From positions 1-26,514 of the forward strand of contig CAMOLA010000031.1 of NCBI GenBank assembly GCA_946618265.1: 26,514 bases of DNA. The letters are read 5' to 3'. This document shows positions 18,095 to 20,551 of this stretch, one piece after another; position 1 is the first letter of the stretch; each line of letters starts with the position of its first letter. The DNA is from an uncultured Eggerthellaceae bacterium. Its GTDB lineage: Bacteria; Actinomycetota; Coriobacteriia; Coriobacteriales; Eggerthellaceae. The notes beneath the pieces were generated by a model, which saw only the letters and a program-made list of their open reading frames with translations, ran no database searches and was not told the origin of the DNA. The position numbers were made by a program, and so were the translations under genes.

Positions 18095-19507
18095 TTACAT
18101 GAACGGTTCCAGGTAATGTAGGGGCGCGATGCGCACTTCGCCGCAATACGGTTTGGAGGCGGGCAGCTCGAGGCCCGGCTTGGAGACCATCATGGTGATC
18201 GTCTGGTTGGCGTGGATGCAGGGGTCTGATGTAGTTCCCGTCTGCGCGTTCAGGCCGCTCGGCGTGTCGGCGGCGATGACGAAGGCGGGTGGCGGGCAGT
18301 CGTTTCCCATGGATGCGGGGTCGCTGGGATGGGCGCGGTTGGCGGGTGCCTGGCGGTCGTTGGCGGCGCGTATCCAGGAGTCGAACGGCGCTTTTACAGT
18401 CTGGCCCGCAAAACCGGTTCCCAAAAGGGCGTCGACGATCACGTCTGCATGGGAGAGTGCGGTTTCGAGCGCTTCTTCGTCGGGGTTGGCCAAGATGCGG
18501 ACGCCCTGCTCGCTAAGGATGGGCTCGCAGGCGATGGCGGCATTGCGGGCGGGTTGCGCCTTCAGCTGCTCGGGCGTGCGCGCGCAGATGACCGTGACGT
18601 TGCGGCCGGCGCGGGCCAGCTCGCGGGCGGCCACCCAGCCGTCGCCGCCGTTGTTGCCGTTGCCGCACAGGATGGCGACGGCGGCGCCGGGATGATCGGT
18701 CTGCACGCGGTGGGCGATTGCGGTGCCGGCACGGTCCATGAGTTCGGCGAGCGATGTGCAAGCGGCGTCGATGTCCTGTTCGAGCTGGATGACGCGCTGG
18801 ATGTCGAAGATGGGCGGTTCGAGTTCATGCAGGTGGGGCAGCATTTCGGCATAGGCGCTGACGAGCTGTTCGAACTTCGCCGCTGCGTTGGCGGGGCTGG
18901 TCGAGGGCAGCTTCACGCAGGGAATGCCCGTTTGCGCCTCGCAATGGCGCGCGTAGAGCTCGGCGGCCTTCGCGCCCGTGCAGAAAACGGCCTCGATGGG
19001 CGCGACGTCCAGGATGCGGGACAGGTCGTTGGGCACGGCATTGGTGATGCTCGCGTCGCTCGCGCCCGCGATTTCGCATGACGCGAGCACGTCCCACAGC
19101 GCGATGTGGTGGCGAAGCAGCTGGTCGCGTCGGCGCTCGTTGGTCGTGGCGACCGGCTCGTCGAACAGCCGCGCCAGCACGCGCCAGAAGCGGTTTTGCG
19201 GGTGGCCGTAGTAGAACCCGATTTCGCGCGATTTGGGGGATGGCATCGTGCCCAGGATGAGGATGCGCGAATGCTCGTCGAAAATCGGTTCGAGCGGGTG
19301 GTCGATGCGCTGCGGTTGGGTTGCGCGTTTCATATGCCTGGCCTTCTCGTCTTCCGCGACGGCTTTCGCGATCGTCTGCTCGACGGTCGAGGGGATGCCG
19401 AACAGCGTGCGCTGCGAAGCCACGGGGCGCGGCGCCTTGCCGCTCGCCTCGGCCGCGAGCATGTCGTGAATGCGCTTCCAGCGCTTTTCGTCTTCCCGAT
19501 AACTCAT
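18095..19507 (-). CDS. Fusion of DNA-deoxyinosine/uracil-type glycosylase and NAD(P)H-hydrate epimerase
   Basis: A 470-residue protein of two enzymes. After a charged 70-residue leader, residues 80-225 are a UDG-superfamily glycosylase of the deoxyinosine (hypoxanthine) type. It has ILGTMPSPKSREIGFYYGHP (84-103) then QNRFW, LWDVLASCEIAGASD, and the late STSPAN (202-207). Residues 237-470 are a YjeF-N/NnrE epimerase with LMDRAG, the nucleotide loop GNGNNGGDG (282-290), DALLGTGFAG (359-368) and DTPSGLNAQTG (414-424). The first would excise deaminated bases; the second would repair the S/R epimers of NAD(P)HX. The ADP-dependent dehydratase domain usual beside NnrE is absent. I start at ATG 19507; no strong ribosome-binding site is visible there. 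A five-copy palindrome array lies just upstream. Confidence 0.88.
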   Translation of the reverse strand: MSYREDEKRWKRIHDMLAAEASGKAPRPVASQRTLFGIPSTVEQTIAKAVAEDEKARHMKRATQPQRIDHPLEPIFDEHSRILILGTMPSPKSREIGFYYGHPQNRFWRVLARLFDEPVATTNERRRDQLLRHHIALWDVLASCEIAGASDASITNAVPNDLSRILDVAPIEAVFCTGAKAAELYARHCEAQTGIPCVKLPSTSPANAAAKFEQLVSAYAEMLPHLHELEPPIFDIQRVIQLEQDIDAACTSLAELMDRAGTAIAHRVQTDHPGAAVAILCGNGNNGGDGWVAARELARAGRNVTVICARTPEQLKAQPARNAAIACEPILSEQGVRILANPDEEALETALSHADVIVDALLGTGFAGQTVKAPFDSWIRAANDRQAPANRAHPSDPASMGNDCPPPAFVIAADTPSGLNAQTGTTSDPCIHANQTITMMVSKPGLELPASKPYCGEVRIAPLHYLEPFM

Positions 19508-19541
19508 GGGAACAGGGTAGCAGATTGCGCCATTTCGCGAA

Positions 19542-19790
19542 TCATTTTCCCCGCGGGAAAATGATCGCGCCCGGAGCGCTTCCGCGTCCGTTTTCCCCGC
19601 GGGAAAATGATTCGGCATCTGAACAGGTATTTTACGAAACGATCAGTTTCCCCGCGGGAAAATGATTCAAGCGAGCACATCCTTCTCCCTGGGCGCGCGG
19701 CTCCATCCCGACCGTTTTCCCCGCGGGAAAATGATTCGGCTTCTGAACAGGTGCTTTCTAAAACAACTGGTTCCCCGCGGGAAATTGATT
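19542..19790. repeat. Array of five CCCCGCGGG palindromes
   Basis: Five near-identical copies, TTTTCCCCGCGGGAAAATGA or slightly shorter, at 19542-19564, 19591-19612, 19647-19667, 19715-19736 and 19771-19790. Copies 2-3 with the segment between them (containing TCTGAACAGGT) are duplicated as copies 4-5 at an offset of 124 bp. The array fills the gap between the thermonuclease stop and the start of the glycosylase-epimerase gene. It could be an operator cluster, a set of hairpins or a repeat element in expansion. Confidence 0.9.
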
Positions 19791-19804
19791 CGCGGGACGG
19801 GCGG

Positions 19805-20551
19805 CTAGGCGAAGAGGTAGGAGATGCCGGCATCGTGGGCGAGGGCCTGCTCCTTGAGCGTTTCGAGCTGCTCGGCGTAGTAGGTGTTGGGTTCGTAGCG
19901 CATCGTGTCGGCGTAGCCGTCGGCCACCATGATCGCGTTCGCCATCTTGTGCGCGACCTCGTCGGGATCGCGGGGGTCGCCGGGCAGCTCGATCCACACG
20001 TAGCGCAGCAGGCGTTCGTAGCGGTCGCGGTCCTCCTGGTCAGCTTGGAGGTACACGGGCGCGCCCTCTTCGAGCAGTGCGCTCAGGTGGTTGCTTGCCA
20101 GTTCGCCCTCTTCGCTGTTCTGCTCTTCGATATGGCTGACCGATTCGGGCGCGTCGATGCCGATGAGCCGCACGCGCTCGGTCTTGCCCTCGATCGAGAC
20201 GTCGACCGTATCGCCGTCGACGACGTATTCGACGATCGCCTGCTGTAGGTCCTCTGCATGTGGCTTTTGCAGCACGATGCCGGCTACCAGCGCGACGGCC
20301 AGGAGCTCGGCGACAATCACCGCCGGCACGCCGATGCGGAACAGCGGCTTGCGCGTCTTGTGATGAAATGCCTGCATGCCCGCGAAAGCGCCGATTCCCC
20401 CGCCCATGACGGCGAGCAGCATGAGCGCTTTCTCGGAAATGCGCCACGCGCCGCGCCGCGCCCGCGCCTTGTCGATGCCGAATGCGGCGAAAGCGAGCAC
20501 GTTGATGCAGGCAAGGTAAACACCCAGCGCGGGCAAAATGTATGGTGCCAC
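19805..20551 (-). CDS. DUF1294 membrane domain fused to thermonuclease (SNase-like) domain
   Basis: A 248-residue protein. Residues 1-75 form a DUF1294 domain: helices around AFAAFGIDKARARRGAWRIS and the LMLLAVMGGGIGAFAGM helix, then HHKTRK. A further helix (about 74-95) anchors the protein. Residues 103-247 are a staphylococcal-nuclease domain with YVVDGDTVDV, RLIGIDAPES and YERLLRYVW. By analogy R128, E136 and R180 are catalytic, and D114 and D133 bind calcium. The topology suggests a membrane-tethered nuclease, probably outside the cell. The start is GTG 20551 after AAGGGAG; no ATG is available. Whether the two domains work together is unknown. Confidence 0.87.
   Translation of the reverse strand: MAPYILPALGVYLACINVLAFAAFGIDKARARRGAWRISEKALMLLAVMGGGIGAFAGMQAFHHKTRKPLFRIGVPAVIVAELLAVALVAGIVLQKPHAEDLQQAIVEYVVDGDTVDVSIEGKTERVRLIGIDAPESVSHIEEQNSEEGELASNHLSALLEEGAPVYLQADQEDRDRYERLLRYVWIELPGDPRDPDEVAHKMANAIMVADGYADTMRYEPNTYYAEQLETLKEQALAHDAGISYLFA

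Follow-up and report, generated by a model that had tools for sequence, protein, structure and literature searches.

A gene joining hypoxanthine-DNA glycosylase and NAD(P)H-hydrate epimerase domains in an uncultured Eggerthellaceae bacterium, and its fused relatives

Background

Bifunctional Nnr proteins (E. coli YjeF, T. maritima TM0922) carry two repair activities on one chain, an NAD(P)H-hydrate epimerase domain (NnrE) and, C-terminal to it, the dehydratase NnrD, which acts on the same substrate. In the accessible portions of PMC5938422, NnrE and NnrD are reported to be fused in 97% of 1,248 genomes having both genes, K192 is given as the catalytic lysine of E. coli YjeF, and a plant protein is described in which NnrE is joined to a partner other than NnrD, the vitamin B6 salvage enzyme PPOX. 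A pairing of an NAD-related enzyme with a sanitising domain, the latter partly complementing a mutT strain, is described for NadD-YqeK of minimal cells and Firmicutes (accessible portion of PMC9426524). Standalone hypoxanthine-DNA glycosylases (HDG; TIGR04274, solved relative 2l3f) have no extra domain and belong to family 6 of the UDG superfamily. As far as PMC5387724 is accessible, families 1 to 5 are stated to act on uracil, family 6 is the exception, and its mark is a motif 1 whose third place lacks the catalytic Asp or Asn together with a motif 2 that lacks His. DNA repair and metabolite repair are usually studied apart.

The DNA analysed here is a 26,514-nucleotide stretch from an uncultured Eggerthellaceae bacterium (hereafter the window), which encodes one protein with an HDG domain followed by an NnrE domain. 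Its NnrE half resembles that of bifunctional Nnr in fold and motifs, and two putative repair activities are likewise fused; the partner, however, is a DNA glycosylase placed N-terminally, and NnrD, judged from relatives, is encoded elsewhere rather than in the chain. As in the plant protein, NnrE is joined to something other than NnrD, but a B6 salvage enzyme is unlike HDG, and the families of NadD-YqeK differ again and include no DNA glycosylase. Compared with the standalone glycosylases, the window protein is of the same family by curated cut-off and by fold, with NnrE added. Database entries from Slackia exigua and Slackia sp. (P0065, P0068) have an HDG-YjeF_N architecture equal to that of the window protein, and differ from it by a stretch that is inserted or disordered and by a DDDGYDPYSD tail at the C-terminus, both of which the window protein lacks.

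Results and discussion

Gene and domain organization

The gene and its parts are placed in the window as follows.

18095-19507, minus strand: HDG-NnrE fusion gene, 470 aa plus stop, comprising N-terminal extension, HDG, short linker and NnrE
19307-19507, minus strand: N-terminal extension, residues 1-67, with predicted helices at 3-22 and 41-61 and low confidence between them
18860-19294, minus strand: hypoxanthine-DNA glycosylase domain (TIGR04274), residues 72-216, with N105 (19193-19195) and the LPSTSPAN motif invariant
18812-18859, minus strand: linker, residues 217-232, from the glycosylase match to the start of the epimerase region
18098-18811, minus strand: NAD(P)H-hydrate epimerase domain (YjeF_N / TIGR00197), residues 233-470, with GxGNNGGDG, D359, D414 and K443 invariant

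Translation of the minus-strand frame at 18095-19507 gave no internal stop. The original prediction had described one uninterrupted frame here, with no strand given; the frame was borne out, and all of the motifs quoted for it were found in the translation. Mechanical ORF calling placed the start at 19618 (507 aa). The start was set at 19507 (MSYR...), because an MSYR N-terminus is shared by 12 of 233 fused proteins, the query among them, and because the stretch upstream of 19507 crosses a cluster of repeats.

The N-terminal half matched TIGR04274 (DNA-deoxyinosine glycosylase) with 132.9 bits over residues 72-216, above the curated cut-off of 80, and Pfam UDG with 50.8 bits over residues 75-214 (cut-off 24.3). 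Motifs were placed by eye as GTMPS (motif 1) and LPSTSPAN (motif 2); by eye also, the third place of motif 1 holds no catalytic Asp or Asn and motif 2 holds no His, the mark of family 6. Activity on both deoxyinosine and uracil had been predicted. The deoxyinosine (hypoxanthine) assignment stood, the TIGR04274 cut-off being passed, and uracil activity was dropped from the reading because family 6, said in the accessible part of PMC5387724 to lack it, is the exception among the UDG families. A uracil glycosylase is likewise unsupported by the family match, TIGR04274 being a hypoxanthine family.

The C-terminal half matched TIGR00197 (NAD(P)H-hydrate epimerase) with 117.9 bits, the best stretch being residues 246-388 (cut-off 88.6), and Pfam YjeF_N (PF03853) with 125 bits over residues 254-445 (cut-off 24.9), and its conserved residues are present. 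A bifunctional NnrE-NnrD enzyme was ruled out by the absence of a PF01256 match from the 470 aa.

The first linker residues are part of the last glycosylase helix (212-225). Compared with ten relatives, the window protein showed identities of 0.65-0.94 in HDG and 0.45-0.84 in NnrE, and the stretch between the domains (residues 223-245) was below either at 0.30-0.74. The N-terminal 67 residues were shared with the nearest relatives only: identity was 0.51-0.87 in six of the ten compared and 0.01-0.07 in the other four, where the stretch is absent or unlike.

Conserved residues and structure model

Twelve putative catalytic or ligand positions were inspected in an alignment of 59 fused proteins that spans the two lineages described below (I and II), and all twelve were invariant (59 of 59): N105, W138, D139, S202, S204, A206, N285, N286, D289, D359, D414 and K443. 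These include the Asn and SxS columns of the glycosylase (N105, S202, S204) and, in the epimerase, D359 (18431-18433), D414 and K443 (18179-18181), so that the loss of catalytic residues from one domain, which had been named as grounds for giving up the prediction, was found in neither. In the alignment with TM0922, K443 falls opposite a Lys; it is the probable counterpart of K192 of E. coli YjeF.

An AlphaFold2 model made with the 59 fused sequences had a mean pLDDT of 90.4 and a pTM of 0.83, with pLDDT below 50 in residues 24-38 only. The nearest solved structures by sequence were 2l3f for the HDG half and TM0922 for the NnrE half. Foldseek retrieved 2l3f (TMt 0.82), MUG and TDG with the HDG half, and TM0922, Helicobacter YjeF, mouse AIBP (2dg2) and yeast YNL200c with the NnrE half (TMt 0.67 for both TM0922 and 2dg2).

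Proposed activities

On these family matches and conserved residues, the protein can with high confidence be predicted to combine two repair enzymes in a single polypeptide. The N-terminal half, as a family 6 glycosylase, would cut deaminated adenine (hypoxanthine) from DNA, leaving an abasic site for ordinary excision repair; the C-terminal half would convert R-NAD(P)HX to S-NAD(P)HX, to be taken up by an NnrD dehydratase encoded elsewhere. The two active sites are most likely independent, because the two substrates share nothing to pass along. The joint gene is old and has been retained by a large share of the Eggerthellaceae; the fusion most likely persists since joint production of two low-level housekeeping repair activities is useful. 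The reading favoured here as a whole, a two-enzyme repair protein whose pairing is kept as useful together, is judged reasonably probable from sequence evidence; the useful-together part, taken alone, has about an even chance of being right.

Distribution of the fusion and of NnrD

A search of ~5.8 billion proteins gave 4610 hits, and both Pfam domains were present in 119 of the best 120, query included (P0059 is the lone exception). The fusion is not unique to the window. Across 138 Eggerthellaceae genomes, NnrE was found in 102, HDG in 108 (106 above cut-off) and PF01256, the NnrD family, in 135. The NnrE locus was examined for 101 of the 102 NnrE-bearing genomes, and HDG and NnrE lie in one frame in 39 of these 101, each of the 39 from a separate genome. 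Both a database search and a count of fusions had been proposed with the original prediction, and each returned fused relatives in number. The same relatives rule out misassembly, which had been named as a way in which the prediction could fail: that an assembly or frameshift artefact united two genes in the window is vanishingly improbable beside 119 two-domain proteins among the best 120 of 4610 hits and 39 separately fused loci.

Named fused relatives include Slackia exigua, Adlercreutzia caecimuris, Adlercreutzia mucosicola and Slackia isoflavoniconvertens. A Slackia entry is titled 'DNA-deoxyinosine glycosylase / YjeF family N-terminal domain multi-domain protein', and the novelty is to that extent less than first implied, since the database record already names that protein as both activities. 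The HDG-NnrE architecture is thus in public records; a published description was not found in the open-access literature, which is weak evidence, as subscription journals lie mostly outside it. Carriage by phage was rejected, as none of the 17 matching records of a phage collection spanned 80% of the query.

A single NnrE match was found in 97 of the 102 genomes, the other five having a partial second match, so the fusion is the epimerase available in fused genomes. A separate NnrD had been expected elsewhere in the genome, and in the relatives it is found: PF01256 was matched in 38 of the 39 fused genomes (G018 is the one without), with no PF01256 match adjoining NnrE among the coordinates listed for them. 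No NnrE-NnrD fusion was seen among the 101 Eggerthellaceae NnrE loci, in contrast to the 97% of 1,248 genomes given in the accessible part of PMC5938422; in Collinsella, a 537-538 aa frame at two loci (L192, L193) is NnrE-NnrD by eye. The Eggerthellaceae are a whole family with the epimerase parted from its usual dehydratase partner, and a natural setting for testing the epimerase's role, a question raised in the accessible part of PMC5938422.

The missing NnrE-NnrD fusions (0 of 101 loci) suggest a loosened tie to NnrD, and so suit an account in which the epimerase half, in place of NAD(P)HX repair, acquired a further function linked either to the glycosylase or to vitamin B6. Moonlighting has been proposed for E. 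coli YjeF. In the accessible text of PMC5938422, the K192A change lowered epimerase activity by at least 95% and altered amino acids and PLP, with NAD(P)HX little affected. In the fused proteins, however, all of the epimerase residues are kept, NnrD-family genes are present in 135 of the 138 genomes, and a B6 gene as fused partner was not seen in the frames scanned; such a second role is considered improbable.

Origins of the pairing

The HDG-NnrE pairing arose at least twice. A second lineage (lineage II) came to light through P0121 (locus L096, genome G134), a divergent fusion protein, and in P0122-P0155 (49-69% identity) both domains were recorded for 31 of 34 in the precomputed Pfam column. 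P0121, and also P0102, passed both curated family cut-offs. Among the matches listed, the NnrE half of P0121 shares 52-56% identity with each of seven proteins, six of them standalone NnrEs and one an NnrE-NUDIX protein (P0162), but no more than 37% with lineage I.

All trees came from 'quick' searches; those comparing the two lineages were made from 52 NnrE domains (12 chosen per lineage) and from 60 HDG rows. In the NnrE tree, lineage II and the same seven proteins fell on one side of a branch with starred support of 99. Forcing lineages I and II together cost 216 log-likelihood units for NnrE (p-AU 0.0017, 52 rows) and 75 for HDG (p-AU 0.0009, 60 rows), and a single origin was rejected for both domains. 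Within the lineages the picture is less tidy. Lineage II is not one clade in the NnrE tree, where three rows unfused to HDG nest inside it. For lineage I, a single HDG clade was rejected when only the long row L096 had been left out (p-AU 0.0039), and was no longer rejected (p 0.155) once L215, L244, L247, L229 and L199 were also dropped, these being nested, fragmentary or long rows chosen after the trees had been seen. For lineage I as one NnrE clade, p was 0.0502 without L096 and L191; when the nested unfused rows L105, L098, L123, L128 and L156 were also dropped, again after the trees had been seen, the fused NnrE rows were grouped by a branch with support 85, unstarred. Because some unfused rows nest inside fused groups, the joint is sometimes lost or missing.

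Anaerovorax odorimutans has an HDG gene, one stop codon, 18 bases and then an NnrE gene in the same frame, the latter with a GTG start preceded by a purine-rich stretch; its HDG groups with those of lineage II (99, starred, in the 60-row tree). A further 147 genomes sampled from the order of Anaerovorax gave, among the matches listed, no other case of HDG beside NnrE, and a conserved HDG-NnrE neighbourhood in Clostridia was ruled out on this count (1 of 148).

This layout, an in-frame gene pair parted by one stop codon and 18 bases, speaks for neutral joining: adjacent genes in these genomes would lose a stop codon, the joint protein would be tolerated, the pairing would carry no meaning apart from two sound enzymes sharing a chain, and the common repair theme would be coincidental. 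This explanation is regarded as somewhat unlikely, given that the pair arose twice, in the same order and from different NnrE stocks, and that neutral joints would be expected to break often, whereas the fused state has been kept across long branches. Further evidence on it comes from the other partners of the two domains.

Other partners of NnrE and HDG

Besides the 39 HDG fusions, NnrE lies behind a VanZ-RDD region at 27 of the 101 Eggerthellaceae NnrE loci (VanZ was labelled by Pfam for four, L132, L136, L171 and L179, and for the rest by a profile built from five VanZ-RDD loci) and behind an arylamine N-acetyltransferase (NAT) domain in one genome (L180:2797-4389); the remaining loci have none of these partners. 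The VanZ-RDD-NnrE protein is a possible membrane-bound epimerase.

A C-terminal module of the form ~DDDGYDPYSDR..P.PLF..DPW was seen in 113 of the 138 Eggerthellaceae genomes (for example L296:1381-1596, L297, L303, P0065, P0102). It is present as one copy per genome except in two genomes, often as a short frame of its own; in other places it forms the C-terminus of HDG-NnrE (85 of the 233 fused proteins), of an NnrE frame in G111 or of MetA in G001. Its 72-aa form had no Pfam or NCBIfam match.

With VanZ-RDD, NAT and this mobile tail module as evidence, the Eggerthellaceae join unrelated genes readily, which is in keeping with neutral joining, and the VanZ-RDD and NAT partners mean that fusion alone proves no functional link. 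The partners of HDG point the other way. They were surveyed in long frames picked for length, so that the counts are not rates, and this survey covered HDG alone. NnrE was in frame in 41 of 194 HDG frames (one per locus, with some genomes represented more than once), and a different C-terminal stretch of at least 60 residues was present in 15. HDG-5-formyltetrahydrofolate cycloligase was found in four genomes (L257, L258, L261, L266) of Collinsella and its kin, two of them Collinsella tanakaei, and in 12 of 120 proteins among the matches listed (P0223-P0234); the cycloligase is classed as a metabolite-repair enzyme in the accessible part of PMC9426524. HDG-Vsr endonuclease was found in five genomes, one with an added GIY-YIG domain. 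Three genomes pair HDG with an aminoacyl-tRNA editing domain (two of the three proteins were run against Pfam), and L033, one of these, adds an N-terminal glycosyltransferase. One C-terminal tail, at a contig end, had no domain call.

In Clostridia, at least 14 HDG frames of 240 residues or more were present among the matches listed. Three carried O6-methylguanine methyltransferase (two of them run against Pfam), one carried NUDIX, and four, L283-L286, had Tag (3-methyladenine glycosylase I) N-terminal to HDG (three run against Pfam). L280 had a weak alpha/beta-hydrolase match below cut-offs, the tails of L277 and L278 had no assigned family, and three frames had only an N-terminal stretch, without a domain or of uncertain reality. 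Single metagenome proteins were HDG-NnrE-AlkA (P0055), HDG-NnrE-methyltransferase (P0056) and HDG-GIY-YIG (P0206).

Most of the HDG partners seen in relatives belong to families of repair or editing, which favours the damage-repair idea. Counting against it are the weak hydrolase-like match of L280, the tails of L277 and L278, the glycosyltransferase of L033 and the methyltransferase that P0056 has beyond NnrE. Of the bifunctional damage-repair protein first proposed, then, what stands is a pair joined twice, with a glycosylase that has several repair or editing partners; what weakens it is an epimerase that is also fused to VanZ-RDD and NAT.

A broader reading is put forward tentatively, and is thought rather less likely to be right than wrong: HDG may be the hub of a chemical-damage fusion network, joined separately across Coriobacteriia and Clostridia. 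Its partners would then cover, on the same tentative footing, DNA (Tag, O6-methylguanine methyltransferase, Vsr, AlkA), nucleotides (NUDIX), coenzymes (NnrE twice, 5-formyltetrahydrofolate cycloligase) and tRNA charging (the tRNA-editing domain). If this were true, these anaerobes would produce base and metabolite repair in a joint response to a shared chemical stress, and more metabolite-repair enzymes might be traced through HDG fusions. Repeated joining of a glycosylase to cofactor repair would be direct, testable evidence that cells handle both together; if the joining were neutral, it would be a useful warning against inferring function from fusions.

Two minor observations concern these partner families. 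The four Clostridia frames L283-L286 hold two DNA glycosylases, Tag and HDG, per chain; no paper on a Tag-HDG fusion, or on Eggerthellaceae YjeF, was found in the open-access literature. Several Coriobacteriia (G182, G218, G252, G254, G256) also have 5-formyltetrahydrofolate cycloligase inside an open frame 619-674 aa long.

Sequence upstream of the fusion gene

Five palindromic sites close to TTTTCCCCGCGGGAAAATGATTC lie at 19539-19791 of the window, a short way ahead of the gene start. The pattern was matched six times, two of the matches being opposite strands of one site, and shuffled sequences are expected to give none. The neighbouring gene is placed as follows.

19805-20551, minus strand: DUF1294 and staphylococcal-nuclease domains in one protein

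Its product is another two-domain protein.
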